Shown: positions 2,112-50,950 of the stretch, in pieces
Layout of the letters: each line of letters starts with the position of its first letter
How positions within the stretch are numbered: the first letter of the stretch is position 1
Origin: a virus
Length of the DNA: 64,000 bases
IMG/VR virus record: IMGVR_UViG_3300028654_000001
Coordinates: 62,001-126,000 of that record
Strand: one strand, 5' to 3'
Program-made: the position numbers and the translations under genes
Notes under the pieces: model-generated
What the model was told of the DNA's origin: nothing
The model's database searches: none
Seen by the model: only the letters and a program-made list of their open reading frames with translations

Positions 2112-2318
2112 CTAGGGTTGATCTTTGAGGAGTCTCTCAAACCGAGTTGAGTACACGACCCTGAGGTATCGCTGACAGTTAAGTACAGTGTCGATTAGAT
2201 TAGCTTCCTCAAGATCTTTGTGCCCACAGATCCCATTCCACCTGGAACTAAGCTCCCGACTCGGTATCTTCTCTCGAGATATAAAGTACTGGCACGAAAG
2301 GCAAATGAGCTCAGCCAT
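2112..2318 (-). CDS. Small Cys protein with C-terminal RFERLL tag
   Basis: 68 aa, function not recognised. Four cysteines (CLSCQY, CGHKD, NCQRY) suggest a small zinc-binding fold. It ends in STRFERLLKDQP, a divergent version of the peptide shared by many proteins in this window. It is the last of four consecutive minus-strand genes of the same type, each overlapping its neighbour; its start overlaps the stop of the gene upstream by 8 bp, which suggests translational coupling. Confidence 0.65.
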   Translation of the reverse strand: MAELICLSCQYFISREKIPSRELSSRWNGICGHKDLEEANLIDTVLNCQRYLRVVYSTRFERLLKDQP

Positions 2319-2565
2319 TGTCCTTCAAGATCCTCTCAAATCGAGTGGGCCTCCCCGTCCAGCACGGAAGGTGCCGAGCATTACCTTCCGGATCATCCCA
2401 GATGTTGAAGTTGTCCTCGCAGTAACCATTGGCTGCCTGGAAGTCAGTTGGGAAGTGCACACACTCCTTGCACGGGGGACTCACCACTGAGGAGTGGTTC
2501 CCTCGTATGTGCGAAGGCAAGAGCTTGTCATGCGACATCAGGTAAGCGCTTCTAGATTGCTCCAA
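2311..2565 (-). CDS. Small Cys protein with C-terminal RFERIL tag
   Basis: 84 aa, function unknown. CKECVHF followed by GYCEDN and LPCW gives a four-Cys pattern like its neighbours, consistent with one zinc site. The C-terminus is RPTRFERILKDNG, the shared tag. It overlaps the upstream gene by 14 bp and the downstream gene by 8 bp, so the cluster is probably a single translationally coupled operon. Outside the Cys pattern and tag it shows little similarity to its neighbours. Confidence 0.65.
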   Translation of the reverse strand: MEQSRSAYLMSHDKLLPSHIRGNHSSVVSPPCKECVHFPTDFQAANGYCEDNFNIWDDPEGNARHLPCWTGRPTRFERILKDNG

Positions 2566-2788
2566 CGATCCCCCTCAAGATCCGCTCAAACCTAGTAGGT
2601 GGGCTGTAGCGTGGGCACGTCGTCTTATGGGTGACATACTTATGATTACCATCCTCCTGTCGACAGTCTCCAAGCTGATCTCCTCTATCAGGGCGTAGGA
2701 ACAGCAAGTTTCTATGGGTGAACTTGGTGCACCCATTACAAAGACTAGGTTCGTTCGGGTCTTCATCCATCTTGAAGGATCCTTTCAA
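2552..2788 (-). CDS. Small Cys protein with C-terminal RFERIL tag
   Basis: 78 aa. CNGCTKF, GDCRQED and TTCPRY form a four-Cys zinc-site pattern. The tag PPTRFERIL is followed by a longer tail (RGIVGAI) than in other members. It overlaps the upstream gene by 26 bp, and that overlap encodes the upstream tag. Function unknown. Confidence 0.65.
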   Translation of the reverse strand: MKGSFKMDEDPNEPSLCNGCTKFTHRNLLFLRPDRGDQLGDCRQEDGNHKYVTHKTTCPRYSPPTRFERILRGIVGAI

Positions 2789-2981
2789 ACCGAGTAGGCC
2801 TATACAGTGGGAGGTGTCTCTTGCATTCTGTTAGGAAGTCACCCTTGTAAGTCTGATCACTGAACCTAGCACCACAGGGAAAATGCCCATCTGGAACCTT
2901 CTTGGTTAGATAAGTACAATCGGAACAGGGGTTGCGATCTCGATTCGGAGGCATCTTTCTCTGGCGTGGGAACTCACGCAT
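2763..2981 (-). CDS. Small Cys protein with C-terminal RFERIL tag
   Basis: 72 aa from the ATG at 2981, whose ATGCGTGA overlaps the stop of the gene upstream by 8 bp, the same coupling as elsewhere in this cluster. A longer frame upstream of this start is a shadow of that neighbour. NPCSDCTYL, FPCGARF and TECKRH give four cysteines, and the protein ends YRPTRFERILQDG. Probably a zinc-stabilised small protein carrying the shared sorting-like tag. Confidence 0.65.
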   Translation of the reverse strand: MREFPRQRKMPPNRDRNPCSDCTYLTKKVPDGHFPCGARFSDQTYKGDFLTECKRHLPLYRPTRFERILQDG

Positions 2982-3231
2982 CTGCTGGCCGGATGTCCCC
3001 GGTGATAACGAGGTCAACTTCGAAGCCCTCGAACTCAGTCGGTATCTTGGGGCTCCTTGGCTTGTGGTGGAGCAGGATGTGAATGGTTGGGTGGGTCCGA
3101 GCCCCGTTGACCCCAACCCCCACGCCCGTTAGAGCGAAGCCTTGATCCTTGAGCTTCTGATGCAGCTTCTTACCCGCTCTCTTGCAATCAAGGAAAGCTG
3201 GGGAGTCCTCGGTAAGTATTGGCTTAGTCAT
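2974..3231 (-). CDS. Small protein with a GVGVG...IP..F.GF.V beta-barrel-like domain
   Basis: 85 aa, first gene of the minus-strand cluster. GVGVGVNGARTHPTIHIL, IPTEFEGFEVDLVI and TGDIRPA follow the pattern of the N-terminal beta-barrel of NAL1-like trypsin-family proteins (GVGxG, then IPxxxxGxxVxVxxxGxIRP). No catalytic triad is present, so a protease activity is not supported. It lacks the C-terminal tag. It is divergent from the DIESFW-tagged gene at 3274, with 42 bp between them holding promoters both ways. Confidence 0.6.
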   Translation of the reverse strand: MTKPILTEDSPAFLDCKRAGKKLHQKLKDQGFALTGVGVGVNGARTHPTIHILLHHKPRSPKIPTEFEGFEVDLVITGDIRPADA

Positions 3232-3259
3232 CTAGGCGCACTATATACCACAGATGGTG

Positions 3260-3265
3260 TATACT
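3260..3265 (+). promoter_or_regulatory. -10 box for the gene at 3274
   Basis: TATACT preceded by TG lies 8 bp before the ATG and there is no Shine-Dalgarno sequence, so the transcript would be leaderless or nearly so. Confidence 0.5.
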
Positions 3266-3273
3266 TGGGAAGT

Positions 3274-3633
3274 ATGGCCGACAATGACATCGAATCCTTC
3301 TGGGATGGGCTACGACCGCCTCCACTGCCCCCTGAGGAGCAGAGACAGAAAGCCATTGAAACAGGGCTGTGTCGAGCTCGGGAGGAAGCGTTAAACCATC
3401 CTCACTGGGCCGTCTCCTGGAGGAACCCGGGTGAACCAGGGTCGGGGCCGCTCACTGACCTTGTCCGAGCTTTCACCGAGCTGGGGCTATCCGTCGACAC
3501 CCATTTCGAGTTCGATAGATCCGTTCTGTCCCTCGTCATTGGAGACCAGACCATCCACCTAGAAACAACCGATGGACAGACCCGTGTCAGAGTATTCGAT
3601 CTACTGCCAGACACACAAATTGTGATTGCCTGA
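3274..3633 (+). CDS. N-terminally tagged (DIESFWDGLRPP) protein
   Basis: 119 aa from the ATG at 3274; sequence upstream in frame is not coding. It begins MADNDIESFWDGLRPPPLPP, the N-terminal peptide shared with the genes at 16347, 16618, 20913 and 43896. The C-terminal half (LTDLVRAFTELGLS, then LSLVIGDQTIHLE) matches the ends of the 16618 and 20913 products (LGFPPxSI, SLTIxM), so this is a family with a variable middle. The gene stands divergent to four genes of which the last four carry the C-terminal tag. Function unknown; acidic, soluble, no membrane segment. Confidence 0.75.
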   Translation: MADNDIESFWDGLRPPPLPPEEQRQKAIETGLCRAREEALNHPHWAVSWRNPGEPGSGPLTDLVRAFTELGLSVDTHFEFDRSVLSLVIGDQTIHLETTDGQTRVRVFDLLPDTQIVIA

Positions 3634-3685
3634 TAAGCTTCAAGATGTCCCGCGGAGGTTGCCGAGTATCTGGCGTCTTAGAAAC

Positions 3686-4666
3686 CTAGTGTGGAATCTT
3701 TGAACACAGGCGAGCAGAGAACTGTTGGCCCGTCTCTTTGGCGAAGATTGCTTTGAGCTTTGCCACTTCTGCCCAGGCGAGCTGAATCCTCTCCCTGGTT
3801 GCATCTAAGTTGTATCTGTCAGTCCTGCCAGATGGGGTACTCCGGAGCCTCACCAGTTCTTGTTGTGACAACTTGATATCTTCGAGATCACCGCAAATAT
3901 TGGGGACGCTGTCGGTCACCGCCTCTGCACGAGCCCGATCGTGCATACACTTACGGCTGGCCCTGCAGGTGCTCTCTTTGGCCGCTAAGACCTTTATTTG
4001 TGCTTCAATGTCTTCGACATCCTTGGTGGCCCTTGTGAGATACTCTGGGTCACAAGATGAATCTTTGAGAACTTGTCGAACCTTGGCATCAGCCTCTACC
4101 CATCGTGTATCACTCAACTTTTCCGAGTTGAGGAAGTACTCCTCATTGAACATCCTCAACCACGAGAGATTGTATTCAACCGTTCGGACCTCTAAATAGA
4201 CCTTTCCGCGATCGGTCTTGATGACCAATTCTCTGTTCTCTTTAAGCAAGTCTACCAGCTCTTGTAGCAGAGGGCTTTTTAGCTCCTCTGCCATTTGAGG
4301 ATGATCCTTAGCGCCCTTCTTTAGATCATTCACCATACTCGATAAGATCTTTCCAAGCTCATCCACCTTTTTCTGTTGTGCTGTGAGATCACTACAGGTG
4401 GCCACCCGAAGAGACTTTGGTTTTAATCCGAACTCCTCCTTCCAGTGTTGTAAGAGTGCTTGCAACTTGTCCTGGTGACTGCGAGATGTATCGACCTGTT
4501 GCTGCATTTCGTCGTCCGTTGGAGGTTTGCTTGTCGGCTGCCTTGTGGTTGAACTTGAACCCGATGCAGTTTGCTGCACCTCTGAGGCCAGACTAGGTAG
4601 AGCCCGTGAGATCCAGGCCAGTAGAATGACCAACAGGATCAGAGTTTTTTGGAGTCTGAAGAACAT
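3686..4666 (-). CDS. Secreted or periplasmic coiled-coil protein
   Basis: 326 aa. Residues 1-28 are a typical Sec signal peptide: a short basic start, a hydrophobic core (LILLVILLAWIS), and a likely cleavage site after SLAS. A Ser/Thr/Pro-rich linker follows, then long charged helices with heptad character. Six cysteines in the mature part (SCDP, STCRASRKC, NICGD, LCSK) would suit disulphide bonds outside the cytoplasm. No enzyme motif is visible. In a phage context it could be a superinfection or lysis-related envelope protein, but that is a guess. Confidence 0.7.
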   Translation of the reverse strand: MFFRLQKTLILLVILLAWISRALPSLASEVQQTASGSSSTTRQPTSKPPTDDEMQQQVDTSRSHQDKLQALLQHWKEEFGLKPKSLRVATCSDLTAQQKKVDELGKILSSMVNDLKKGAKDHPQMAEELKSPLLQELVDLLKENRELVIKTDRGKVYLEVRTVEYNLSWLRMFNEEYFLNSEKLSDTRWVEADAKVRQVLKDSSCDPEYLTRATKDVEDIEAQIKVLAAKESTCRASRKCMHDRARAEAVTDSVPNICGDLEDIKLSQQELVRLRSTPSGRTDRYNLDATRERIQLAWAEVAKLKAIFAKETGQQFSARLCSKIPH

Positions 4667-11806: not shown

Positions 11807-12007
11807 CTAATCCTCCTTCGATAGGATCCTCTCGAATCGAGTCGGCCTCTCAAAAAAGTGCTCTGAGCACCCATCCATCTCGTGTAACTTCCAGCAAGTC
11901 TCATTGACCTGAGACAATGCCGTTCGCTTGCCATCCAACACAGGAATGAAAACCGACTCCCGAGTCCTGTACCGGTAGCAGTTGGAACAGGAACGAGATT
12001 CAGTCAC
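11807..12007 (-). CDS. Small Cys protein with C-terminal RFERIL tag
   Basis: 66 aa. CSNCYRYRT, ETCWKL and GCSEHFF give a four-Cys pattern as in the 2112-2981 cluster, followed by FERPTRFERILSKED. GTG start at 12007 overlaps the stop of the upstream gene by 8 bp. Function unknown. Confidence 0.65.
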   Translation of the reverse strand: MTESRSCSNCYRYRTRESVFIPVLDGKRTALSQVNETCWKLHEMDGCSEHFFERPTRFERILSKED

Positions 12008-15830: not shown

Positions 15831-16043
15831 TCAATCCTCTTCCTGGAGAATTCTCTCGAATCGCGTCGGGTATAGAGGCCTTGGATAGGGCAGGTATCTT
15901 AAACAACTCCTGATCTCTACGAACTCTAGGGGGCTGATTCTTTCCTCGCACCTTCGTTGCTTGAACTGACGCCCGTTGCCGGTGTCGACTAGCTCAAGCA
16001 CCCAGTGCTGGCAGTTGTCACAAGGGCAGGGAGGGTTTGGCAT
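15831..16043 (-). CDS. Small Cys protein with C-terminal RFERIL tag
   Basis: 70 aa from ATG 16043 (or 16049). Starts MPNPPCPCDNCQHWVLEL, matching the 20678 gene (MPDQPYPCDDCQHSLMV), then RRCEER and RSCLRYLP, and ends LYPTRFERILQEED. Four-Cys zinc pattern plus tag. It overlaps the gene upstream (stop 16018) and belongs to a pair divergent from the N-terminally tagged genes at 16347 and 16618. Confidence 0.65.
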   Translation of the reverse strand: MPNPPCPCDNCQHWVLELVDTGNGRQFKQRRCEERISPLEFVEIRSCLRYLPYPRPLYPTRFERILQEED

Positions 16044-16221
16044 CCTCATCCTCTTGAGGGAGTGGCTCTTGCCGGGGACCTCCGACGACTTGTTTAAACT
16101 CGAGAATGTAGGGACACTCTCGTATGATGAGAGTGTCAGTCCTCGGAGGAACAAGTCCCAAACTGCAAAGCTCTTCCTTCCACCGTTGACATCGATTACA
16201 AGGTCTCGGATCCTTTGGCAT
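16018..16221 (-). CDS. Small Cys protein without tag
   Basis: 67 aa. PCNRCQRWKEELC and RECPYI give four cysteines as in its tagged neighbours, but the tail is an acidic, Pro-rich stretch (GPRQEPLPQEDEDAKPSLPL) in place of the RFERIL peptide. It may be a family member that lost or never had the tag. Confidence 0.55.
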   Translation of the reverse strand: MPKDPRPCNRCQRWKEELCSLGLVPPRTDTLIIRECPYILEFKQVVGGPRQEPLPQEDEDAKPSLPL

Positions 16222-16346
16222 CTGAGAAGGCTACCATAGAGAGCAGTTTCGGTGTAATGTCCTTTCATGTTGTGGACAATTATTGTATACGCCTTCGGTT
16301 GTTTAACTGGCTGGTATGTTCGTAAGATCTTGGAATAAGTGGCCTA

Positions 16347-20494: not shown

Positions 20495-20698
20495 ATGGAA
20501 CACGTTCGATTCAGCCAAGACCAGAAACGAATCATCGTCCTGAATAACCAATATGCTCAGTGCGGGATCAACTACGACAAGGACACTCGGCGCATCGTAG
20601 AGCAAGACATACACACGAGGCCTACCCTCAAGGCCATCCCCATTGAGTACGAAGAGTACCGCCTGCAGACGGTCTCTCTAGGACCCCTCTTCACGTAG
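20495..20698 (+). CDS. Hypothetical protein, paralogue of 24876 gene
   Basis: 67 aa. DQKRIIVLNNQYAQCGINYD then TRRIVEQ and RPTLKAIPI align with the 24876 product (EQRRIEAMRAYYAQFGVSCD, TRRLFES, RPTVKLLPV), so the two are duplicates about 4 kb apart. Leaderless. Basic N-terminal helix; function unknown. Confidence 0.65.
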   Translation: MEHVRFSQDQKRIIVLNNQYAQCGINYDKDTRRIVEQDIHTRPTLKAIPIEYEEYRLQTVSLGPLFT

Positions 20699-20869
20699 GA
20701 TACGTTCGAACCGTGTGGGGTACAGCCGCAGAAGTGGCAGTTGTACAGGACACACATCAGTACCTAGGAGACAGGGAGGAGTAACTCCCTTTGAGCACTC
20801 CCAGTACCTCCGTACCATCAACGAGTGCTGACAGTCATCACAGGGGTAGGGCTGGTCAGGCATCGCCAA
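20678..20869 (-). CDS. Small Cys protein with C-terminal RFERIL tag
   Basis: 63 aa. MAMPDQPYPCDDCQHSLMV resembles the 15831 gene; further cysteines at ECSKG, PPCLLG and VCPVQ. Ends LYPTRFERILREEGS. Its 3' end overlaps the convergent gene at 20495 by 21 bp. Divergent to the N-terminally tagged 20913 gene, 43 bp away. Confidence 0.65.
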   Translation of the reverse strand: MAMPDQPYPCDDCQHSLMVRRYWECSKGVTPPCLLGTDVCPVQLPLLRLYPTRFERILREEGS

Positions 20870-29563: not shown

Positions 29564-29767
29564 CTACCCTCGAGGGGGATTCTTCAGAGCCGGACATATA
29601 GGAGGCTTCGAGCGTACAACCCGCTTGAGACCTTCCCGGACGTCTACGATGTCCAATGGCTTTGGGGAACGAGCACCGACAGGCTTGGCCCCAAGGGCCG
29701 CGGCCACTCGTTTAGGATCAACCTTCCGCTCCATCTTGAACTTTGGCATCCCTACAATCTTAGACAT
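29564..29767 (-). CDS. Small basic protein
   Basis: 67 aa from ATG 29767, which overlaps the stop of the tagged upstream gene by 8 bp. MSKIVGMPKFKMERKVDPKR then VGARSPKPLDIVD; very basic, likely nucleic-acid binding. Function unknown. Confidence 0.5.
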   Translation of the reverse strand: MSKIVGMPKFKMERKVDPKRVAAALGAKPVGARSPKPLDIVDVREGLKRVVRSKPPICPALKNPPRG

Positions 29768-30176
29768 CAGAATCAAGGATCCTTTCAAATCGAGTCGGCC
29801 TCTCTATAGGCTCCTCAGCACCCCGAACCAGGTGAGCATGTTTCAGGTCCATGACCGGCTGTGCTAATGTAGTGTGATCATCACACAGAAATGGGCCCCC
29901 TTGAGGATTCCATTTGAGGATTCTAAGTTCCCCATTGATGTAAGGTGTCAGCTCTGAACCTTCTTGAACCATCCTATCGAAGTGCCTTCTGAACGCTCGA
30001 GAGAGCTCCTCAGCAGTGAACACTTCGGGGGCGGCCATCACGAGCCGAAACAACCCGATCCCAACCCTCCAGAAGGTCTGTCCCTTCTCAGGAACATGCA
30101 TCCTCGTAGCTATCTTTGCACATACATGACAGCGAGGTGCAAAGTGCCTCAAGAAATTGTTCAGATCTTCAGACAT
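29760..30176 (-). CDS. Zinc-site protein with C-terminal RFERIL tag (family B)
   Basis: 138 aa from ATG 30176 in an 8-bp overlap with the upstream stop. FLRHFAPRCHVCAKIATRMH and FLCDDHTT form a CxxC...CxxH zinc site. Ends EERPTRFERIL-type: IERPTRFERILDSDV. Homologous to the next gene upstream and to 39937 (pattern FGPRCxxCxxLATR, then QDLxxAxLVR before the tag). Function unknown. Confidence 0.7.
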   Translation of the reverse strand: MSEDLNNFLRHFAPRCHVCAKIATRMHVPEKGQTFWRVGIGLFRLVMAAPEVFTAEELSRAFRRHFDRMVQEGSELTPYINGELRILKWNPQGGPFLCDDHTTLAQPVMDLKHAHLVRGAEEPIERPTRFERILDSDV

Positions 30177-30579
30177 CAGGCCCAAGAATCCTTTCAAATC
30201 GAGTCGGCCTCTCCACTGGAGGCCCCTCCTCAACTCGAACCAAGTTGGCTATGGGAAGGTCTTGATACCCCACACTGGCAGGACTCTGATGCTTGTCACA
30301 ATAGTACCAACCTCTAATCCTGGGCCAGTCCAATGGGTAAACTTCAACGTCGGCACTACCACTTCGAACCAAGTCATTCTCGATCAAGGTTCTCAACCAT
30401 GTGCGCCCTAGGTCACCTGCAACCTCAATCGAGGTACTCTGAAACAGAAAACAGAAGTCCTCACACCTTGCTTCAAATAAAGTATGGAACCATGTGGAGA
30501 CTGTGATTCGAGTAGCAAGCTCTCCACAGAAACAACACCGGGGCCCAAACTTACTCAGAAGGTCGACAACATCAGACAT
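30169..30579 (-). CDS. Zinc-site protein with C-terminal RFERIL tag (family B)
   Basis: 136 aa from ATG 30579. LLSKFGPRCCFCGELATRIT and YYCDKHQSP give the zinc site; QDLPIANLVRVEEG precedes VERPTRFERILGPDV. Tandem paralogue of the 29760 gene; the middle has diverged strongly while the ends and tag are kept. Confidence 0.7.
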   Translation of the reverse strand: MSDVVDLLSKFGPRCCFCGELATRITVSTWFHTLFEARCEDFCFLFQSTSIEVAGDLGRTWLRTLIENDLVRSGSADVEVYPLDWPRIRGWYYCDKHQSPASVGYQDLPIANLVRVEEGPPVERPTRFERILGPDV

Positions 30580-31470: not shown

Positions 31471-31683
31471 TCACTCGTTCTGGAGGATGCGTTGGAACCT
31501 GGTCAGGGGTTGATTCGATTCCAGATGGGGGCAAGGGTCGTAGTTGATGTTACGGCTGTTGGTGAGGCGGAGGAGGCCTTGGAGACCTACCCAGACGCGT
31601 TCACCCTTATCGCAGAGGGTGATGTTCTGGTCTTGGAGGGTGGGTTTGTTGTTCCAGTGGCACTTGTCACATTCGGTGGGCAT
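31471..31683 (-). CDS. Small Cys protein with variant tag RFQRIL (family C)
   Basis: 70 aa. MPTECDKCHWNNKPTLQDQN, then LCDKGERVWVGLQGLLRL and DPCPHLES align with the N-terminal 60 residues of the 42372 product. Ends PLTRFQRILQNE, a variant tag. A zinc site of four Cys and one His is likely. Last gene of the long minus-strand set above it. Confidence 0.65.
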   Translation of the reverse strand: MPTECDKCHWNNKPTLQDQNITLCDKGERVWVGLQGLLRLTNSRNINYDPCPHLESNQPLTRFQRILQNE

Positions 31684-31702: not shown

Positions 31703-31804
31703 TCAGATGACTGGGTCCCGTTCGAATCTTGATGGGCGGTCTTGGTCTATCTCTTCCTCTAGGGGGAGTTGGTCAGGCACTGAGACAGTGTGGGGTAGGT
31801 TCAC
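31703..31804 (-). CDS. 33-aa peptide ending in RPSRFERDPVI tag
   Basis: GTG at 31804, stop at 31703. The peptide is MNLPHTVSVPDQLPLEEEID followed by QDRPSRFERDPVI, so it is little more than an acidic lead and the shared tag in its RFERxxVI form. It overlaps a 32-codon frame (31773-31871) in another frame; joined by a single-base shift they would make one 60-residue protein. Either a very short tagged gene or a frameshifted one. Confidence 0.5.
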   Translation of the reverse strand: MNLPHTVSVPDQLPLEEEIDQDRPSRFERDPVI

Positions 31805-31871
31805 GAGCTAGGGGGTCACGACCTTTGACAATGAAGACTTGGTCGCTATCTTCTATTTCGAGGGTGGGCAT
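31773..31871 (-). CDS. Short frame overlapping the 33-aa tagged peptide
   Basis: 32 aa, MPTLEIEDSDQVFIVKGRDP and on; its start resembles the 37650 product (MPTLELTENEARVFV). It overlaps the upstream gene by 19 bp. Could be the front of a frameshifted tagged gene. Confidence 0.35.
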   Translation of the reverse strand: MPTLEIEDSDQVFIVKGRDPLAREPTPHCLSA

Positions 31872-37950: not shown

Positions 37951-38397
37951 CTATTTTACTTCCAGAGCTGGTGACTGACCTACCTTGAGCCACTTCTTGG
38001 AGTTTGAACGGACTTTGATCTTCTTTGAGTAGGCGAGGATCCTTTTAGCAAGGCCATCGAGGTTGTGGGTGTAGTCTTTCATAGCCAGAGTGAGAGCTTT
38101 TTGAGGGTTATGAGAGCTTCCCTTACCGGTCAGATGTTCGTAGGGGTCACCCCCGTCCGGTAGATCCCCGACACTGGCATAATACTCGGCTATGTACCCA
38201 TCAAGGATGTAGGCATCGGTTGGGTACTTGGTGTTCCGTTTTAGTTTGACCCACTCGAGGTCGACGTAGATGAACAGGTCATCGTGAGGTGGATCTACAG
38301 GTTCATAGTCCTCATCCTCACTCCAAGAGAACCTAACGCCTTGGAACTTGAAGTCTGGTGGGATAAAGATTTCTTCTTCGGTCTTGGTGTTTGTCAT
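37951..38397 (-). CDS. Hypothetical protein
   Basis: 148 aa, acidic N-terminal half (SEDEDYEPVDPPHDDLFIYV) and basic C-terminal end (KKIKVRSNSKKWLKVG). 5 bp from the upstream gene. Function unknown. Confidence 0.55.
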   Translation of the reverse strand: MTNTKTEEEIFIPPDFKFQGVRFSWSEDEDYEPVDPPHDDLFIYVDLEWVKLKRNTKYPTDAYILDGYIAEYYASVGDLPDGGDPYEHLTGKGSSHNPQKALTLAMKDYTHNLDGLAKRILAYSKKIKVRSNSKKWLKVGQSPALEVK

Positions 38398-38402
38398 GAA
38401 CC

Positions 38403-38678
38403 TCAGTTTGACTTTCCAATCAGATTGGATAGTGGGTAGTCATTGGGGTACCTTACCGTAACGGGCACCTTTTCGACTCCGAAGGTGAGTTGGCCTCTCT
38501 TGTTTTTGCCCAGACGGAGCATGATACCGTTCACTGGTCTATTCGCGTACTGGGAGAGAGCAGCTTCTAACTGCTTCTCATTCGGGAGAGGATCAGTTTC
38601 ACTCAAGCCTAAGAGGCCTTTGATGGCAGCTTCTAGAGGGTTGTGCTTCTTAGTACGGTAGGTATGTTTGAACTTCAT
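38403..38678 (-). CDS. Hypothetical basic protein
   Basis: 91 aa from ATG 38678; AGAGAG upstream may act as Shine-Dalgarno. MKFKHTYRTKKHNPLEAAIK; beta end. First gene of the operon running to 34769. Function unknown. Confidence 0.55.
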   Translation of the reverse strand: MKFKHTYRTKKHNPLEAAIKGLLGLSETDPLPNEKQLEAALSQYANRPVNGIMLRLGKNKRGQLTFGVEKVPVTVRYPNDYPLSNLIGKSN

Positions 38679-38695
38679 TGAGAACTCTCTTTCAA

Positions 38696-38730
38696 ACACT
38701 ACTACGTTTGAGAGGCTAGGATCTCAACTA
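38696..38730 (-). promoter_or_regulatory. Recurrent promoter, leadered version
   Basis: GTTGAGATCC, GCCTCTCAAACG, -10 TAGTAG on the minus strand, with a ~20-bp leader before the ATG at 38678. Confidence 0.55.
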
Positions 38731-39147
38731 ATTATTTGAATTCTTCTTATGTTCGGCGTCGAGGTGGGCAAGTCTCTCGAAGTCGATCTCTGAGCCTTTG
38801 AGTTCATCGAGAGAGAAGCTGATGGGCTCGCTGTTCGATTGGATGACTCTTCCGTCGTCAGTTGATTCGGTGTTACAGTCGAAGCATAGGATTCGATGGA
38901 GTTCGGCCACGGGTGGGTGTGCACAATTGTTCCTTCGGGCTTCGGCCTCAAGGCATCCTTTTGGATCGGACTCACCGAGGAGCAATTTTCTTGGCTTCAG
39001 AATGGCTGGCAAGGGAAGGCGGTTACCGTCTCGGTCGATTGCACCTGGACCATCGAGGCTATCCCCATCCCCTTCTGGTTCGATGTCTCCGGTCTCTGGG
39101 TAGCATACTTTGCATCGAGTGAGGGCTAGATCATGGCGGCAACTCAT
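38728..39147 (-). CDS. Cys/His-rich acidic protein
   Basis: 139 aa. MSCRHDLALTRCKVCYP is a compact zinc site, with a second at CAHPPVAE then LCFDCNTE. Acidic elsewhere. 6 bp after the tagged upstream gene. Function unknown. Confidence 0.55.
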   Translation of the reverse strand: MSCRHDLALTRCKVCYPETGDIEPEGDGDSLDGPGAIDRDGNRLPLPAILKPRKLLLGESDPKGCLEAEARRNNCAHPPVAELHRILCFDCNTESTDDGRVIQSNSEPISFSLDELKGSEIDFERLAHLDAEHKKNSNN

Positions 39148-39153: not shown

Positions 39154-39936
39154 TCAATCCTTGTCTTCTTCGAACAGGTGTTCAAATCTTGTGGGTCTTG
39201 GGCCATCGTACGGTTCGACTTCTTTTTGGAGTTCGCGAGCGGTGGCTTGGTTTCGTTCTGGGGTGGGCTCTCCGGTGTCTTCGTCGGTAGCTTCATAGTT
39301 GGGGGACATAAAGCTATAGAGTTCGATGAGGTTCTCTCTGAGGGCCATCAGAGGGATGCTGAAGCGTTCACCCTCAGGGTAGCATTGGATGAGGTTTTCG
39401 ATTAATCTGGCTTGTCTTCTGGCATTTAGTAACGAGTCCTGGTTGACTATCAATCGTCGAATCTGTTGGGTTGTGGGTTCTACATACGATTGAGCTATTC
39501 GCAGTCGGCCCTCTGGTGTTAGTGCTGAGTGATTGACGAGATCCAAGACTGAGGGGATGGGCTCAGAGACTTGACTACTGAGGAACCAATCGAGGAACTT
39601 CTTCGAGGGTGACGGGTAATGCTCTTTGATGTACCTGATAGCTCCTCTGAAGTCGTGGCTCCCGGGGACGCTGAACTCATCGCAGAGGAGGTTCAAGAGC
39701 TCGTGATAGGTCGGCAGGGGCGGTTCCTGACCTGGTTCCGGTCTTGGGCTGGAGACGATATCGATGTCGATGGGCATGGGTAAATCCCTAAGTCGATTCC
39801 GTTTGAGCTCCTTCTGAAGGCCATCAATCCGGATGTTAGTTTGAATCCATCCAATCATGAAGAACACCGCGAGAACCAAGCGGTATTCCGTAACCAAGTT
39901 AGCGAGCTCTTTAGCGAGGGCTATCATATCAGTCAT
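39154..39936 (-). CDS. Membrane-anchored protein with C-terminal RFEHLF tag (family A)
   Basis: 260 aa. Residues 17-36 (EYRLVLAVFFMIGWIQTNIR) form an N-terminal membrane helix, unusual among tagged proteins. The body (FLDWFL, RLRIAQSYVEPTTQQIRRLI, CYPEGERFSIPLMALRENLI) is homologous to 40437, 41716 and 50474. Ends YDGPRPTRFEHLFEEDKD, a variant tag. If the tag is a docking signal, this member would dock at the membrane. Confidence 0.7.
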   Translation of the reverse strand: MTDMIALAKELANLVTEYRLVLAVFFMIGWIQTNIRIDGLQKELKRNRLRDLPMPIDIDIVSSPRPEPGQEPPLPTYHELLNLLCDEFSVPGSHDFRGAIRYIKEHYPSPSKKFLDWFLSSQVSEPIPSVLDLVNHSALTPEGRLRIAQSYVEPTTQQIRRLIVNQDSLLNARRQARLIENLIQCYPEGERFSIPLMALRENLIELYSFMSPNYEATDEDTGEPTPERNQATARELQKEVEPYDGPRPTRFEHLFEEDKD

Positions 39937-40434
39937 TCAATCCTCGTCGAGGATCCTTTCAAACCTAGTTTTTACCAATGGTTCTGGTAACCTACCCCTG
40001 AACTTACGGACTAAGGGTGCAACCTCGAGGTCTTGATATCTCCAATTGGGGTCTCCGCAGTAGTCACAATAGCAGGGCAGTGGGTCTTTCCAACTACTAT
40101 AGGGCTCTTTACGACTCTCAATCAAGGACTCAGTCAAGTCTCTGACTCCGGCGATAGCCTCCAGGTTGATTTCTTGAATCAGGTTGGTGAGCTCCTCTGA
40201 CTGGGATAGCTCAGCTAGCCACTCTCTACACTTATCTTGGATTTCATGTCGGACTGTTCGAGTTGAAGCTCCATCTTCCCCTACCACGCACTCTGTTTCT
40301 AGAGAGCCGAATCGGAGGGTTGTTGTCTTGTAGCCCTCTTGAGGTCGGATTTTTCTCCTGGTGGCCAAGCTGTAACACGCGACACATCTCTGGCCGTACT
40401 TTAGAAGCAACCTGATTGTAGCTCCAGAGGGCAT
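39937..40434 (-). CDS. Zinc-site protein with C-terminal RFERIL tag (family B)
   Basis: 165 aa from ATG 40434 (TTG two codons earlier possible). LLLKYGQRCVACYSLATRRK and CYCDYCGDPNW are the zinc site; QDLEVAPLVRKFRG precedes LVKTRFERILDED. Homologous to 29760 and 30169. Middle is helical and acidic. Confidence 0.7.
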   Translation of the reverse strand: MPSGATIRLLLKYGQRCVACYSLATRRKIRPQEGYKTTTLRFGSLETECVVGEDGASTRTVRHEIQDKCREWLAELSQSEELTNLIQEINLEAIAGVRDLTESLIESRKEPYSSWKDPLPCYCDYCGDPNWRYQDLEVAPLVRKFRGRLPEPLVKTRFERILDED

Positions 40435-40436: not shown

Positions 40437-40808
40437 TCAATCCTCGTTGAGAATCCTCTCAAACCTGGTGGGGTAGGGGCCGGTATAGACTCCAACTTCT
40501 TCAGGCTTGCTGCAGATCCTACAGAGGGTTTCTCGAAGGGCCGTGACAGGTTCACTGAAGCGTTCTTTTTCTGGAAAGCAGCTGATGAGGGTTTCGATGC
40601 TGAAGATGATCTGTCTGATCCCATCCAAACCTTGAGGCACATCGAGTTTAGTCTGTACCCTATTCAAGTAGGACTTGGCGATAGCGTCTCGTCCAGTTCT
40701 TGTACTCGCGTGGTACCCAAGCATGGGGTTGGTGAAGCCCTCTGGGCACTTGACTAAGTATTGGCCATTGAACCACTCTAGGAACTTCTTGGCGTGTTTT
40801 GATGGCAT
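40437..40808 (-). CDS. Helical protein with C-terminal RFERIL tag (family A)
   Basis: 123 aa. KKFLEWFNGQYLV, RDAIAKSYLNRVQTKLDVPQ, ETLISCFPEKERFSEPVTAL and a tag YTGPYPTRFERILNED. Shares the WF / ERFS / ALRExL pattern with 39154, 41716 and 50474. Function unknown. Confidence 0.7.
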   Translation of the reverse strand: MPSKHAKKFLEWFNGQYLVKCPEGFTNPMLGYHASTRTGRDAIAKSYLNRVQTKLDVPQGLDGIRQIIFSIETLISCFPEKERFSEPVTALRETLCRICSKPEEVGVYTGPYPTRFERILNED

Positions 40809-41489: not shown

Positions 41490-41723
41490 TTAGGGCTTCT
41501 TCCTCTTGGGTTTACTAATCACTTTTGAAGTCTTGGTATGGGTCACACTTGTCTTCACGAACTTGCCCACCCGGGCTCTTGGGCGATACCTAAGGCACTC
41601 GCAGCGGGCACAGCCAGAGGTTGTGCTGTAGTGGTTGTTCAACGGGTGTCCACACTCGCATATGATCAACCCATACTTGAGGGCTTCTTCTACAGTCATT
41701 CGAATGGTGATATACTTAGCCAT
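41490..41723 (-). CDS. Small zinc protein with basic tail
   Basis: 77 aa from ATG 41723, an 8-bp overlap with the tagged gene upstream. IICECGHPLNNHYSTTSGCA, RCECLRYRP is the CxCGHxxxxH...GxCxxCxC pattern of small phage and actinobacterial zinc proteins. Lys-rich C-terminus. Function unknown. Confidence 0.6.
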   Translation of the reverse strand: MAKYITIRMTVEEALKYGLIICECGHPLNNHYSTTSGCARCECLRYRPRARVGKFVKTSVTHTKTSKVISKPKRKKP

Positions 41724-42099
41724 CGGTGAGAATCCTCTCGAATCGAGTTGGTCGCGGCCCATAATAAGGGGAGGCTCTATTATACTTGGAAACTAAGTCA
41801 CAGAAAGCACTTCGTAGAGCCGTAGTAGTGTCAGTAAACCTCTCATCTTTAGGGAGTAAAGACATGAAGTCCTCACAATTATGGATAAGCCACCTAGTAT
41901 CTTCCATCTTTGATTGAATGAGTTCAACACTCCTACTCCCTACTGTACTTACTGAAGCGCAGAGGGACTTCGTTAGCTGGTCCCTACCGGCTTGAGTAGA
42001 GACTAGACCATTGATGTATTCAACTACAGACAGATCGTCACCTCTATCAAAGTAAGTTCTAAACCACTCAATGTAGTCTTCTGGGGTTACCTTTTTCAC
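41716..42099 (-). CDS. Helical protein with C-terminal RFERIL tag (family A)
   Basis: 127 aa. YIEWFRTYFDRGDDLS, LLPKDERFTDTTTALRSAFC, and YYGPRPTRFERILTDG. Matches 39154, 40437 and 50474 along its length. Function unknown. Confidence 0.7.
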   Translation of the reverse strand: MKKVTPEDYIEWFRTYFDRGDDLSVVEYINGLVSTQAGRDQLTKSLCASVSTVGSRSVELIQSKMEDTRWLIHNCEDFMSLLPKDERFTDTTTALRSAFCDLVSKYNRASPYYGPRPTRFERILTDG

Positions 42100-42371: not shown

Positions 42372-42836
42372 TTACTCGTCCTCTCGAGTGATGCGTTCGA
42401 ACCGAGTTGGGGCTTGAGTTTCTTCGATCTCAGGGGGTGGGTTCATGAAGAGCCTTCGGACTTGCTCGATGATGCTCTTGTCGAACCAACAAAGGTTCTT
42501 GGAGGTCATTGTTGAGCTGATCCAACCCATGTAGTGATGATTTTCGAAGTGCTCCCCGTAGTCGAGGAAGAGGTCAACAGTGTCACTACCGGTGTTCCAT
42601 ACGATCCTGAACCTGGAGGTGATGTCGATGTTCAACCTCACCTTCATGGTCTTTTGATCTGGTTCTAGGCGGTGGGGGCATGGATCAGTAGTGGCATCGT
42701 CCTTGATGCGGTCGATACGTAGGAGGCCTTCATGGGCTGACATCCAAATGCGTTCACCCTTATCACAGGTTGCTTGACCGCACTCCGGGATAGCTCTCCC
42801 GGTGTTCCACTGACACTTGTCGCATTCGGAGGGCAT
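42372..42836 (-). CDS. Zinc-site protein with tag RFERIT (family C)
   Basis: 154 aa. N-terminal MPSECDKCQWNTG, TCDKGERIWMSAHEGLLRID, DPCPHRLE as in 31471; a beta-rich middle (LNIDITSRFRIVWNTGSDTV) as in 44422; ends QAPTRFERITREDE. It thus joins, in one protein, parts seen separately in two others. Confidence 0.7.
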   Translation of the reverse strand: MPSECDKCQWNTGRAIPECGQATCDKGERIWMSAHEGLLRIDRIKDDATTDPCPHRLEPDQKTMKVRLNIDITSRFRIVWNTGSDTVDLFLDYGEHFENHHYMGWISSTMTSKNLCWFDKSIIEQVRRLFMNPPPEIEETQAPTRFERITREDE

Positions 42837-44421: not shown

Positions 44422-44742
44422 TTATTCCTCGCGTGTGACCCTCTCAAACCTCGTGAGGACGGGGACTTCTTCTGTATCGTTGATAACTTCACGAGCTTCG
44501 TTGATGAGGACTTGATGGAGGCTGCACCTTCTCGGTTCTGGCAAACCTTCAAGGTTCCGGATCCCGACGTAGCTTTCCGCTTGTGAGGTGCGGTCACTGA
44601 CCCAACCGAGGTTAATCCTTTGCTCGAAGTTCGGGCCGAACTCGATGACGAGGCTCGCAACTGCCCAGGAGCCTTCTTCTTGATTGATGATGATCCTGGC
44701 ATTGGTTTGGATGACCTTGGTCTTGGGTTCATGCTTGGGCAC
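44422..44742 (-). CDS. Beta-rich protein with tag RFERVTREE (family C-like)
   Basis: 106 aa, GTG start overlapping the upstream stop by one base. NARIIINQEEGSWAVASLVI and INLGWVSDRT resemble the middle of 42372. Ends VLTRFERVTREE. Lacks the zinc part found in 42372 and 31471. Confidence 0.65.
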   Translation of the reverse strand: MPKHEPKTKVIQTNARIIINQEEGSWAVASLVIEFGPNFEQRINLGWVSDRTSQAESYVGIRNLEGLPEPRRCSLHQVLINEAREVINDTEEVPVLTRFERVTREE

Positions 44743-45401: not shown

Positions 45402-45788
45402 ATGGCTTTAGAAGCTGGACGATCCTTCGGGACGGTTGGTCGGCACGTTCATATCACTGATAGTTCTACTGGGATGTCCTATGCTGTTTACCTGGAAGTG
45501 GCAGAAGGGAATAGGTTGTCGTTTGTGGAACGGTTTCTCGGCTGGGTAAAGCCATTAGACGGCACTCAAAACTGTCCGTGGTATTGGACTGGGGCGTTGA
45601 AGTGGAATCGATTCAACCCGGAAGAAGTCCGGACCCTCGATCTTATAGAACCTGGGTCTGTTGGAGTCGACTTCTGGAATAAGCTGGCTCTTGACCTGGT
45701 GGACACGTATCTTACGGTAATGTCTGATCCGGAGTCCGAGTACCGAGGGCCTAGACCGAATCGATTCGAACGCGAGGAAGTGATCTGA
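45402..45788 (+). CDS. Protein with C-terminal tag RFEREEVI
   Basis: 128 aa. Beta N-terminal half (HVHITDSSTGMSYAVYLEVA) and a helical end; tag YRGPRPNRFEREEVI. This is the RFERExVI subtype, found in five genes. TGATG overlap with the next gene. Function unknown. Confidence 0.7.
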   Translation: MALEAGRSFGTVGRHVHITDSSTGMSYAVYLEVAEGNRLSFVERFLGWVKPLDGTQNCPWYWTGALKWNRFNPEEVRTLDLIEPGSVGVDFWNKLALDLVDTYLTVMSDPESEYRGPRPNRFEREEVI

Positions 45789-46072
45789 TGTTGAAGTTCA
45801 TAATTGGCTCGTTCTTCTGTGTTGAGTACCGAGACCTTGAGCAGTTCATTCTCGAGGAGACTGGGCATGAGTACGAGATCATCCCCAATGAAGAGTTCAG
45901 GAACGACTCGGTTCATAGATATCGAGTCCATGCTGACCTCAAGACCCATTACTGGGAAGAGTTCAAAACCACAGGAGAGCAGAAGCCATTCAACCTAGAT
46001 GAGATCCTGCTCGGCCTCTGTGCTGATGGTAAGATCTCTGCAGGAAACTACCTCATCTGTGTTAGCTGGTGA
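45788..46072 (+). CDS. Hypothetical protein, no tag
   Basis: 94 aa: MLKFIIGSFFCVEYRDLEQF, ETGHEYEIIPNEEFRNDS. The only member of this operon without the tag. Coupled by TGATG. Function unknown. Confidence 0.55.
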   Translation: MLKFIIGSFFCVEYRDLEQFILEETGHEYEIIPNEEFRNDSVHRYRVHADLKTHYWEEFKTTGEQKPFNLDEILLGLCADGKISAGNYLICVSW

Positions 46073-46076
46073 GTCA

Positions 46077-46574
46077 ATGGAGAGTGCACCCAGACCTATC
46101 ACGTGGTGGAGGCTTGGGCCTCAAGACTTACCGATCTTCAACAAGCGACAAATGATGACGGTAACTATCCTAAGGGAGGGTGGAGAGGGTACTGTGGACG
46201 TATATCACCCCCGTCGAATTCTACTTCCCTTGGTTGACATCCTTTTTCCACCCTATGACTTCCTTCTCGAGAGGATGACAGAGTTAGTTCCTCACGACAC
46301 TACTGCCTGGAGAGAAGGGGGGTTAACTCCCCTGGCGATCCAAGGGAAGCTCTACGGTGTCCTACGACCGCACGCGACGGGTGAGTCCTACGGGATCTGT
46401 TTCTCCCCTGAGGATCTGACACCAGGTTTCCAAGATGAATTCCGGAACCCTGGACACATCTACGAGATGCCTCCCCCTGAGTGCCATCGGTATGGACTTC
46501 CTCTATGGGTGGATCCAGGCTCTCTCTACAACGGACCACGGCCAACAAGGTTCGAGCGCGAACCGGTGATCTAA
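46077..46574 (+). CDS. Family D protein with C-terminal tag RFEREPVI
   Basis: 165 aa from ATG 46077. PRPITWWRLGPQDLPIFNKR at the N-terminus and YGVLRPHATGESYGICFSPE, DLTPGF in the C-terminal half are shared with 46598. Ends YNGPRPTRFEREPVI. Two tandem paralogues with the same tag; function unknown. Confidence 0.7.
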   Translation: MESAPRPITWWRLGPQDLPIFNKRQMMTVTILREGGEGTVDVYHPRRILLPLVDILFPPYDFLLERMTELVPHDTTAWREGGLTPLAIQGKLYGVLRPHATGESYGICFSPEDLTPGFQDEFRNPGHIYEMPPPECHRYGLPLWVDPGSLYNGPRPTRFEREPVI

Positions 46575-46597: not shown

Positions 46598-47134
46598 GTG
46601 ATTCCTCCACGACCAATCACCTGGTGGGGCCTCGGCATGGGGTGCCTACCCGTACTCAATAAACCTGCAAGGACTCCATCCTTTATCATTGATGAGAATG
46701 CGGACACCATTTTTATGGTGTCCATCCCCAATCTTATCCAAGTACCAATCTTCGAGCTTCATTGTGGAGAGGAGGGCACTTCCATCGAAGAACAGATTCA
46801 GGAGCTCCTAGGAGTCTTGCTGGACGCTGCCAAGTTCGAGACTTGTACGAATGATACCGAACCAGGGGGAGCCTTCTACGGGCTCCTGAGAGCCAACTAC
46901 AGAATGCAGAATAGGGATGGTTGGATGTGGACCGTCGAATTGGGCCTGGCCTTCTCAGAGGAAGTCCTGACCCCTCACTTCGATGACCTTATGGCTTCTG
47001 GGGCCGTATTCTCGAGCCATGAGCTGAAACCTGATGAATGCCAAAGGATTGGGCTTCCAACTCTCTTGGAAGTGTCAGCATCTGAACCTGAGCTATACCG
47101 TCCGACTAGATTCGAGCGCGAAGACGTGATATGA
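46598..47134 (+). CDS. Family D protein with C-terminal tag RFEREDVI
   Basis: 178 aa, GTG start. PRPITWWGLGMGCLPVLNKP, then EEQIQELLGVLLDAAKFETC, ELGLAFSEEVLTPHFDDLMA; ends YRPTRFEREDVI. The ELGLxxSExxLxP motif also occurs in the 54601 gene of the cas operon. Confidence 0.7.
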   Translation: MIPPRPITWWGLGMGCLPVLNKPARTPSFIIDENADTIFMVSIPNLIQVPIFELHCGEEGTSIEEQIQELLGVLLDAAKFETCTNDTEPGGAFYGLLRANYRMQNRDGWMWTVELGLAFSEEVLTPHFDDLMASGAVFSSHELKPDECQRIGLPTLLEVSASEPELYRPTRFEREDVI

Positions 47135-47143: not shown

Positions 47144-47506
47144 ATGCTCGAGGTACTTGTTCAGGTCAGTGAAACTATAGATACTTACATAGTAGATGTA
47201 ATAGATGTGAGGGGGTCTACCCCAGACGATGAGCCTAATAACAATTATAACTCTGAGTTGAGAGTTGAATTGAACGAGATTATCGACGATGAGATTAGTA
47301 ACGTGGTCTCTTCTAGGGTAAGTAAGCTGGTCTCCCACTTGACTGAGAAGTATTTCATGTACTCGTGGAGGGTCATTGTGCTTAATGACGGTATCGAGGT
47401 CAATCGAATTGAGTGCAAAGTAGTAGGAGAGTCGAGCCAATCTGTCCAGGAAGAGCCAGCCCCTATTGAGCGGAGGTCTCGATTTGACCGGGATGACGTG
47501 ATTTAA
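47144..47506 (+). CDS. Acidic protein with C-terminal tag RFDRDDVI
   Basis: 120 aa. LVQVSETIDTYIVDVIDVRG, LNEIIDDEISNVVSSRVSKL, then IERRSRFDRDDVI, the most divergent tag. Otherwise not similar to its neighbours. Function unknown. Confidence 0.65.
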   Translation: MLEVLVQVSETIDTYIVDVIDVRGSTPDDEPNNNYNSELRVELNEIIDDEISNVVSSRVSKLVSHLTEKYFMYSWRVIVLNDGIEVNRIECKVVGESSQSVQEEPAPIERRSRFDRDDVI

Positions 47507-48688: not shown

Positions 48689-48718
48689 ACTCTTTACCCC
48701 AGCATAAGAGGATTGTGA

Positions 48719-48916: not shown

Positions 48917-48935
48917 ACCCGGTCACTACACCGAT

Positions 48936-49181: not shown

Positions 49182-49495
49182 GACTTCTCCTCTGTGTGCT
49201 TGAGTTTGTAACTATCGGTCCAAGCTAATGATACCCTTTCCGGCACTACGTCACCGTCAACCACGACCGGAACAAGGGTCGTACCATTTGCTTCCAATGT
49301 CTTCTCAGCGGCTGCCACTTGCTCCTCAGTAAGACTTATCTTCTGAGAAAAGTTCTCACTAGGCACCCCACATGGATCAAAGCCGTAGATCACCTGTACA
49401 CCAATGTCACGGTCTCGTAGACTACACATTGGTGATCGAAGGTAACTCTCACCAACCAAAAGAACTGCAGGTTCAGGGTTTGGTTGCTTTGCCAT
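49178..49495 (-). CDS. Hypothetical protein
   Basis: 105 aa. PAVLLVGESYLRSPMCSLRD, then a helix (LTEEQVAAAEKTLEANG) and strands. TAATG overlap with the upstream gene. Function unknown. Confidence 0.55.
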   Translation of the reverse strand: MAKQPNPEPAVLLVGESYLRSPMCSLRDRDIGVQVIYGFDPCGVPSENFSQKISLTEEQVAAAEKTLEANGTTLVPVVVDGDVVPERVSLAWTDSYKLKHTEEKS

Positions 49496-49827
49496 TACTT
49501 TTGGATCCCCCGGCTGTACTTTTCAAGTGCATCAAAGATACTGAATCCGACCAATATGTTGCCACCCCCATCAACCATAATGACCGACTTCTTTGTGTCA
49601 GGAATGGGCTCCTCTTCCGAGGAAAGAGCGGTCACGAGACAGTACTCACTGCACTCGTCTTTGGTCCACTCCCCTAGTCGAGCGTTGTAGGTGTCCAAGA
49701 AGACCTTCTCACTCTGCACTGGGAGCATATCTGATCTCCATCCACCTTCTTGGCGATTCATCATCCAGAGCATCCCGAGGCTGTCTCGTCGAAGTACACA
49801 GTCACCTAGTAGGTTTCGCTTTGCCAT
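49495..49827 (-). CDS. Hypothetical protein
   Basis: 110 aa from ATG 49827. MAKRNLLGDCVLRRDSLGML, then KKSVIMVDGGGNILVGFSIF. Function unknown. Confidence 0.55.
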   Translation of the reverse strand: MAKRNLLGDCVLRRDSLGMLWMMNRQEGGWRSDMLPVQSEKVFLDTYNARLGEWTKDECSEYCLVTALSSEEEPIPDTKKSVIMVDGGGNILVGFSIFDALEKYSRGIQK

Positions 49828-49829
49828 GA

Positions 49830-50207
49830 TCACACCCGCCTCCAGCCATTGGCCCGCCAACCATCTTTGATTTTTTGCCACTCACCGTAGGTGGTTCGGA
49901 TCAATTTATCAGCGAGTACAAGAGTGATCTTCCCATCGTTATCGAAGTACACTGTACGAGTTTCAGCACCCTTCTGAAAGGTCTGAGACAACGTCAGCGA
50001 GTAGTGGACCCAACCTACATCCCGAATGAAGTCCCAACGGTCCAACCACTCACGAGTAGGAATGCTGAAGATCTCACCCTTGCTGTTCGACATGCGAACA
50101 TTCTGGCCGTCAAGATAACTTACGATCAGGGTGTTCTGATTAAGCTTCCACACACCAAAGGTTTGTTCAGCCGCTTTGATCTCGTCAATGGTTGCGTTAG
50201 TTGCCAT
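49830..50207 (-). CDS. Hypothetical beta-rich protein, leaderless
   Basis: 125 aa starting MATNATIDEIKAAEQTFGVW right after a -10 box. Beta strands (TLIVSYLDGQNVRMSNSKGE, TRTVYFDNDGKITLVL) and a basic end. Function unknown. Confidence 0.6.
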   Translation of the reverse strand: MATNATIDEIKAAEQTFGVWKLNQNTLIVSYLDGQNVRMSNSKGEIFSIPTREWLDRWDFIRDVGWVHYSLTLSQTFQKGAETRTVYFDNDGKITLVLADKLIRTTYGEWQKIKDGWRANGWRRV

Positions 50208-50245
50208 GCCCTATATTACGCACAACCAGGGCGGCTCTCACTGAC
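50208..50245 (-). promoter_or_regulatory. Recurrent leaderless promoter, variant
   Basis: Minus strand: CAGTGAGAGCC, TGCG, -10 TAATAT, AGGGC, then ATG at 50207. Confidence 0.55.
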
Positions 50246-50477
50246 TTTTCATAATTAGTCTAGAAGGCCGAATCAAATCCTCGACTGGAACCTTAGTATT
50301 CGGATCAACTTCAATGCAGCTATAACTATCCCTGAGGATGATTGCGTGAGGCTTCGTGGTCAAACCCTGAGCAATTACGCGCCCATTGACCAAGGACAGA
50401 GCCTCATAAACCCCTGACTTTGGCCATAGGATCAACCCATTGCGGGCGGCGATGGTTACAAGATCTGAGCTAGTCAT
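50238..50477 (-). CDS. Hypothetical protein
   Basis: 79 aa: SSDLVTIAARNGLILWPKSG, VNGRVIAQGLTTKPHAIILR. Beta-rich. ATGA-coupled to the tagged gene upstream. Function unknown. Confidence 0.55.
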   Translation of the reverse strand: MTSSDLVTIAARNGLILWPKSGVYEALSLVNGRVIAQGLTTKPHAIILRDSYSCIEVDPNTKVPVEDLIRPSRLIMKSQ

Positions 50478-50950
50478 TGCACTATAGATTGAACTAAGGG
50501 CTCGTCAGTTTCAGTTTCGTTCGAGGGTTCCTCATCTATCTCTAGGAGCCGTTCGAACCTAGTGGGGCGAGGACCGTCATACTCTTCTGAGCTGGCCTCA
50601 ACTCCATGGCGGCTGTTGAGGAAGTCACAGAGCTCGAACAGCTGCTTTCGCATAGCCATGATGACTGGACTGAAGCGTTCCTCATCTGGGAGGAGGTTGA
50701 TGAAGTTCTCGAGCTCGATGACGAATCTTCGGATATCTCTTGAGGAAGACCAGAACCTCTTGATTTTCTCAAGCTTATTCTGTGATGCCTGCACCATAGC
50801 AAGAGCTATCTTGATCCTACCCTCCTTGGAGATGATCAACTGCTCTAGTGAGGTGAGGAGCTTTCGAGTACTCTCTGGAGGGCCGCTAGACTTATCCTTG
50901 ATGTCTCTGGTGGCGTACCATTCAAGGTATCTTTGAAAGTGAGGTTCCAC
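50474..50950 (-). CDS. Helical protein with internal RFERLL tag (family A)
   Basis: 158 aa, GTG start with Shine-Dalgarno AAGGAG. QRYLEWYATRD, GRIKIALAMVQASQNKLEKI, LLPDEERFSPVIMAMRKQLF, then YDGPRPTRFERLLEID. Uniquely, the tag is followed by another 22 acidic residues (EEPSNETETDEPLVQSIVQ), so the tag need not be at the very end. Homologue of 39154, 40437 and 41716. Confidence 0.7.
   Translation of the reverse strand: MEPHFQRYLEWYATRDIKDKSSGPPESTRKLLTSLEQLIISKEGRIKIALAMVQASQNKLEKIKRFWSSSRDIRRFVIELENFINLLPDEERFSPVIMAMRKQLFELCDFLNSRHGVEASSEEYDGPRPTRFERLLEIDEEPSNETETDEPLVQSIVQ

Follow-up and report, generated by a model that had tools for sequence, protein, structure and literature searches.

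Introduction

In phages, portable peptide labels have been described for a few proteins. The internal proteins of phage T4 combine a constant tag with variable bodies, the encapsulation peptides of bacterial microcompartments are amphipathic helices, and SspB delivers its clients via a C-terminal ClpX-binding peptide. Here we describe a short peptide with the core TRFER, hereafter the tag, which in all likelihood is a portable docking motif (a short linear motif) on about 60 accessory proteins of a huge phage. The window analysed is a stretch of 64,000 bases, bases 62,001-126,000 of the 512,571-base IMG/VR record IMGVR_UViG_3300028654_000001 (genome label G000). The record belongs to a tailed phage with a tail-sheath relative and a major capsid protein matching PF05065 (E 1.7e-6), and the window contains cas genes and CRISPR arrays.

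The motif is real, portable, under selection, and common to related huge phages with a diverged consensus. One label marks a large accessory set, and diverged versions of it are found in at least five further huge phages. Its reader would say where hundreds of otherwise unannotated genes work, and the motif is a tool for spotting accessory effectors in new huge-phage genomes. Literature searches found no description of a C-terminal or linear-motif tag of jumbo phages.

Frequency and forms of the motif

Genes of G000 were called with a simple codon-usage gene finder (own script), giving 775 genes whose start positions are guesses. The genome was scanned stretch by stretch, and genes spanning the borders of pieces were possibly missed. 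Proteins were scored with a 9-position matrix, retrained for each genome, and shuffled proteins at the same threshold served as the null. At 6 bits, 58 tails of G000 carried a match within 20 residues of the stop, compared with 1.8 in shuffled proteins; at 12 bits the numbers were 54 and 0.1. A DNA-form pattern for TRFER occurred 50 times in the 512,571 bases (two strands), and the reversed control pattern 0 times. The preliminary description counted at least 22 tagged proteins, a number limited to the window: the whole genome has about 60, and the tag is on about 8% of all G000 genes.

Two forms were distinguished. Type A reads TRFER-(I/V/L)-L-x-(D/E), with the core [ST]-x-[FWY]-[DE]-[RHK]-[LI]-[LM]-x-[DE][DE]. 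Type B reads TRFER-E-(D/E/P)-V-I, in general form [STP]-R-F-[DE]-R-[DE]-[DEP]-[VP]-[IL], and always ends at the free C-terminus. Proteins usually carry one copy and sometimes two, as does G000 243801. The peptide was first described as C-terminal, and this is its usual position only, since copies also occur in loops and at N-termini in this phage and its relatives. In G000, internal copies were found in 227143 and 246657, and the kinase-like protein 240283 has a copy close to its N-terminus.

The strict type B DNA pattern had 0 matches in GTDB species genomes, where diverged forms were not searched, and there is therefore nothing to suggest a common host motif of exactly this form. In IMG/VR the same pattern matched 5 stretches on 3 contigs. 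A six-codon collection pattern returned two stretches from IMG/VR, one a true relative and one due to chance, and a general DNA pattern written for diverged forms was so permissive that it served for a rough count only. The sequence TRFERTL in G002, G003 and G019 was rejected as a coincidence; it is the start of an FmdB-type zinc-ribbon family.

The tag is carried by unrelated bodies

The 61 tagged bodies formed 49 clusters at E<1e-3, of which 43 had a single member, in agreement with the initial impression of unlike bodies. Bodies are shared in a few families, with 5-, 4- and 3-member clusters. Synonymous differences between the codons, also reported at the outset, were confirmed genome-wide: 42 exact TRFER copies use 33 distinct codings. 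Their pairwise nucleotide identity (0.746) is at the level expected from codon usage (0.734), and with codings this diverse the similarity is kept at the peptide level. Some tagged proteins have untagged paralogs: in G000, 171173 is the untagged paralog of tagged 45748 (E 5e-23), and a second such pair is 95346 and 170710 (E 9e-14). Proline is enriched 2.4-fold in the 20 residues preceding the tag.

Tagged and other proteins do not differ in length (median about 139 aa). Orthologs in the compared phages were lacking for 50 of 61 tagged proteins and for 381 of 714 untagged ones (P 1e-5). Pfam and PADLOC assigned almost no functions to 103 tagged proteins of related phages.

Diverged tags in related huge phages

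Relatives were gathered by tail-sheath and kinase queries, and then with phage ClpX as a third query. Some are partial, the G023 set being without 220-260 kb, and the absence of a gene from a fragment is uninformative. Diverged forms in other huge phages include TAWERLLxDD, TAWRRLMxDDEY, DAYDKLMDED and SRFDREEVI. Tail tags numbered 21 in G016 (312 kb; null 0.9), 9 in G021 (363 kb; null 0.9), 16 in G022 (252 kb; null 0.2), 58 in G023 (435 kb; null 0.5) and 15 in G024 (309 kb; null 0.6), and the fragments G001, G004, G015 and G025 held few copies. N-terminal tags were noted in only two cases, both in G023.

Tags aligned at equivalent sites of orthologs in five protein families, which identifies them as the same motif and not as lookalikes. 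In the kinase homolog the tag lies in an N-lobe loop, reading GPRTRFDHILEDDDD in G000, GPKTRFDHILEDDD in G001 and GGGFFEQLEADD in G016. In the G022 ortholog, L170, the N-lobe insert has been lost, and PTAWARLMDEDDE is found in the activation segment instead. Relocation, within one protein, of a motif that is nevertheless kept strongly indicates a portable docking peptide. The internal site of 246657 reads TRFERILDPEPEDPN, TRFERILEPEPEDPN and DFFDHLIGEPPPDPN across phages, and family 264224 ends in NRFSRILLDDDD, TAFDHLLEGDDD, TAYDHLLGDTLGEDE and NAFSRLLSDDQIGDDD in four phages. A DUF3268/topoisomerase-ribbon protein ends in SDAFDLLEESD in G016 and in TAWRRLMGDDEY in G021. The RecA-like protein ends in TRFEREDVI (type B) in this phage and in TRYERILRGRD (type A) in G004, so types A and B interchange; a peptide-pattern search for this protein gave no relatives. 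In seven ortholog pairs with the sibling contig G030, identity averaged 84% in the tag 9-mer compared with 52% in the aligned protein.

Other conserved ends were seen in these phages. A small protein near tagged genes in G000 (131212-131505), G016, G021 and G022 has the conserved end AYRxxWDxIFGxKxVVGxA, which is similar to the tag core although the protein forms a separate family. The family of G000:265142-265963 and 38073-38924, common to all tag-bearing phages, has another conserved short C-terminal end in its orthologs (DxxLxxA...AxPF-like). In LR745208.1, proteins L130, L134, L143 and L150 (515, 1290, 515 and 269 aa) share a terminal G..[IV]LD[LM][LF]-type motif, which may be a tail by which replication proteins bind the clamp. 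The G[GST]xILD[LM]F-type tail motif of LR745208 was rejected as an equivalent of the tag; it has a different pattern and is on large proteins.

Predicted structure of the tag

AlphaFold models the tag of the 138-aa window protein 29763-30176 as an isolated helix (residues 129-135) with Thr just before it, preceded by an unstructured stretch. In the kinase model, whose best Foldseek match was to kinases (E 8e-11), it forms a short helix within a loop of low confidence that joins two strands. The residue pattern (Ser/Thr/Asp, an aromatic at +2, Asp/Glu at +3, aliphatics at +5/+6) would fit a capped short amphipathic helix. In type A, the aromatic and two aliphatic residues would share one helix face, followed by an acidic end. 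A common C-terminal fold reaching upstream of the tag was not found: the bodies are unrelated, untagged paralogs exist, and the modelled helix is isolated.

A proposed docking motif

The peptide was originally proposed to be a sorting or docking signal, and the unrelated bodies, the untagged paralogs, the isolated helix and the Pro-rich linkers support this proposal. In such a mechanism the tag, usually presented at the C-terminus behind a flexible Pro-rich linker and sometimes in a loop or near the N-terminus, would dock its helix in a groove on a single partner that these phages conserve. The partner would most simply be phage-encoded, and docking would gather otherwise unrelated proteins at one place.

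Several points weigh against this reading. A single common partner is proposed because the motif is uniform, and types A and B could have different partners. The motif is absent from the relatives LR745208 (485 kb; major capsid protein 84% identical) and Tunturi_5 (309 kb), so the system is dispensable or replaced there. Retraining the matrix for each genome can inflate weak matches, and the shuffled null used the same matrix. Genes were called with our own script and several genomes are partial. The AlphaFold models have a mean predicted local distance difference test score (pLDDT) of about 60.

Possible destinations

Three destinations were considered for a docking motif. Head loading comes first, as a possibility held tentatively. 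Here the motif would bind a head-core or scaffold protein during assembly, and the tagged accessory proteins would travel inside the very large capsid and reach the next host together with the DNA, like the T4 internal proteins. The T4 capsid-targeting sequence (on IPI, IPII, IPIII and Alt) is likewise a short constant peptide that works, in a phage with a contractile tail, as an address label on accessory proteins that are small and variable. The excess of tagged proteins without orthologs given above reproduces this pattern, in which the tag stays constant while the small bodies vary and are specific to a lineage. Pieces of the major capsid protein occurred in 7 of 186 tagged and 6 of 3034 untagged proteins (P 2e-6; G000, G016, G022 and G023), a value that overstates independence since these proteins are in part homologous between phages. 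The tagged bodies include a Tad2-like one, which would suit an anti-defence protein acting early. The T4 sequence, however, is N-terminal, cleaved and of other sequence, whereas 58 matches in G000 lie within 20 residues of C-termini and others are internal. The T4 proteins are found inside the virion and processed by the prohead protease, whereas packaging of the tagged proteins is a prediction. Transmembrane segments in the tagged 198805, 199554 and G016 L163_1006 and L163_17869 are unexpected for lumen cargo, and a promoter-like motif found before tagged genes (9/22) is rare before structural genes (4/39; P 0.008).

The capsid-piece fusions (G000:220848-223754; G016 L164:9693-10403 and L165:1-630; G022 L189:16104-16856; G023 L290:2960-3859) consist of another N-terminal domain, a major-capsid-protein stretch (N-arm, spine helix) and the tag. 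In this phage the capsid-piece proteins are 220848 and 222714, the latter with two capsid segments; segments are in permuted order in 222714 and G016 L165_1. The Tad2-like (Thoeris anti-defence) domain match is in the tagged G000:10102-10578 (E 1.7e-4, just under the family cut-off). Two strong classes of upstream motif were seen in the intergenic regions of G000. Class one is [CT]GGTGTA, frequently arranged as the inverted pair TACACC[GA]...[CT]GGTGTA. Class two, GGTGAGATC...CTCA..CGTA[GA]TA, is common in the window and was found before none of the tagged operon leaders.

A membrane- or cytoplasm-based hub is somewhat unlikely. In this case the motif would gather enzymes as well as Cys/zinc, kinase-like and membrane-anchored proteins on a single scaffold or compartment that the phage builds in the infected cell. 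The tagged set does mix soluble and membrane-anchored proteins, any topological position of the tag works, and crosslinking would be possible for proteins with two copies, 243801 for example. The membrane-anchored tagged proteins and the distinct promoter-like motif are also in keeping with a role in the infected cell. No scaffold candidate stands out, a homolog of the nucleus-shell protein chimallin not having been specifically searched for. The cargo peptides of encapsulins and bacterial microcompartments are also short and follow flexible linkers on unrelated cargo proteins, but they differ in sequence, and the clients here include membrane proteins. No cognate shell protein was identified in this phage, where the major capsid protein alone was recognised and no search was aimed at shell proteins.

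Docking on the phage-encoded ClpX is unlikely. The tagged proteins would be adaptors or baits, each made of a variable body, a flexible linker and a constant dock, that deliver captured proteins to this ClpX together with host ClpP. The clade-specific ClpX (277071-279446) has zf-C4_ClpX and AAA_2 domains and a [VLM]GF loop where the ClpP-binding loop lies. It is present in 6 of 6 well-covered tag-bearing genomes and absent from the tag-less LR745208 and Tunturi_5, and G023 and G024, chosen only for ClpX, turned out to be tag-rich. However, 14 G000 gene entries, some paralogous, are in all six tag-bearing genomes and in neither tag-less one, among them ClpX, an AAA ATPase and the tagged family 264224. 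With at least 13 other entries sharing its distribution, including this second AAA ATPase, the link to ClpX is a phylogenetic correlation only. A simple regular expression found no phage ClpP, and the tag is unlike any ClpX-binding peptide known to us. The ClpX-binding (XB) peptide of SspB is comparable in being C-terminal, on a flexible tail, and in docking a client-binding body on the zinc domain of ClpX, and these phages do encode a ClpX with a zinc-binding domain. It differs in sequence and is found on one adaptor as against about 60 carriers, for which binding is only predicted. Distinctly doubtful is the extension to modular adaptors, in which dozens of small baits would share one docking helix for phage ClpX working with host ClpP, and each body would bind a different host, defence or competitor protein. 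In phages this would parallel the swappable substrate receptors of a single ubiquitin ligase. Intein or homing-endonuclease insertions are present in ClpX (277071-279446), the AAA ATPase (291481-294426) and a DUF1848 protein (267973-269817); the ClpX of relatives is without such an insertion.

An ssrA-like C-terminal degradation tag is very improbable. The tag is mostly C-terminal, and type B, always terminal, ends in a free hydrophobic residue. Type A, however, does not depend on the free C-terminus of an ssrA-type ClpX/ClpA degron; it also occurs at orthologous sites inside proteins, in loops of the kinase and close to N-termini, positions from which threading of a C-terminal degron would be impossible. 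Selection for dozens of stably kept genes per genome marked for destruction is also hard to see. A family feature, either one homologous C-terminal domain or the recent spread of one DNA segment by duplication, is scarcely credible given the 49 clusters, the untagged paralogs, codon identity at random expectation, the relocation among kinase orthologs and the isolated helix, although a few families do share bodies.

Sliding-clamp-binding peptides are, like the docking motif proposed here, short terminal hydrophobic motifs on unlike proteins, but their QxLF-type pattern is absent from the tag. In the whole-genome scan no called gene of the replication region (426-447 kb; clamp-loader-like 426181, RecA-like 436581, helicase-like 440578) carried the tag.

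Tagged genes in the window

All 22 stops listed in the preliminary description were translated, and each C-terminal region carries the peptide or a close variant (Table 1). Seventeen have an exact TRFER (one NRFER) near the stop. Five deviate: 31471 (TRFQRIL), 39154 (TRFEHLF), 47506 (SRFDRDDVI), 31703 (SRFERDPVI), and 50474 by its distance from the end. The open reading frames (ORFs) at 11807, 20678 and 31703 are short and weakly supported as genes. A Cys-rich coding sequence lies upstream of the two stops that precede 31703..31807, which is probably the remnant of a broken tagged gene.

Table 1. Tagged genes, numbered from the first base of the window
Position	Strand	Product	Tag or C-terminal end
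2112..2318	-	68-aa zinc-type protein	STRFERLLKDQP
2311..2460	-	protein, 49 aa or longer	PTRFERILKDNG
2552..2770	-	72-aa zinc-type protein	PTRFERILRGIVGAI
2763..2981	-	72-aa zinc-type protein	PTRFERILQDG
11807..11941	-	short ORF	PTRFERILSKED
15831..16268	-	145-aa ORF	PTRFERILQEED
20678..20869	-	63-aa ORF	PTRFERILREEGS
29760..30176	-	138-aa protein, five-member Cys family	PTRFERILDSDV
30169..30579	-	136-aa protein, same five-member Cys family as 29760	PTRFERILGPDV
31471..31683	-	70-aa zinc-type protein	LTRFQRILQNE (variant)
31703..31807	-	34-codon frame directly after two stops	SRFERDPVI (type B)
39154..39936	-	260-aa protein, hydrophobic N-terminal stretch	PTRFEHLFEEDKD (variant)
39937..40434	-	165-aa protein, five-member Cys family	KTRFERILDED
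40437..40808	-	123-aa helical-family protein	PTRFERILNED
41716..42099	-	127-aa helical-family protein	PTRFERILTDG
42372..42836	-	154-aa zinc-type protein	PTRFERITREDE
44422..44742	-	106-aa ORF	LTRFERVTREE
45402..45788	+	128-aa protein	PNRFEREEVI (type B; exact C-terminus)
46059..46574	+	171-aa protein; weak match to a major-capsid-protein segment (independent E-value 3.5e-4)	PTRFEREPVI (type B)
46637..47134	+	165-aa paralog	PTRFEREDVI (type B)
47144..47506	+	120-aa protein	RSRFDRDDVI (type B variant)
50474..50950	-	158-aa helical-family protein	PTRFERLLEIDEE (24 aa before end)

The window also holds a type I-C-like CRISPR system (51684-54366, 55353-61905 and 62266-63986) with matches to Cas7, Cas5 and Csd1/Cas8 and a ResIII/DEAD helicase gene. 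It is flanked by three CRISPR arrays, with about 29 copies of GTTTCAATGAACGGGGAGC..., 7 of GTTTCAATGAACGTGGGGATC..., and at least 24 in opposite orientation up to the window end. Among tagged proteins of relatives, G023 L292:8290-9492 is a radical-SAM protein; one protein of the tagged set, most likely this one, matches prokaryotic viperin models (E 6e-12).

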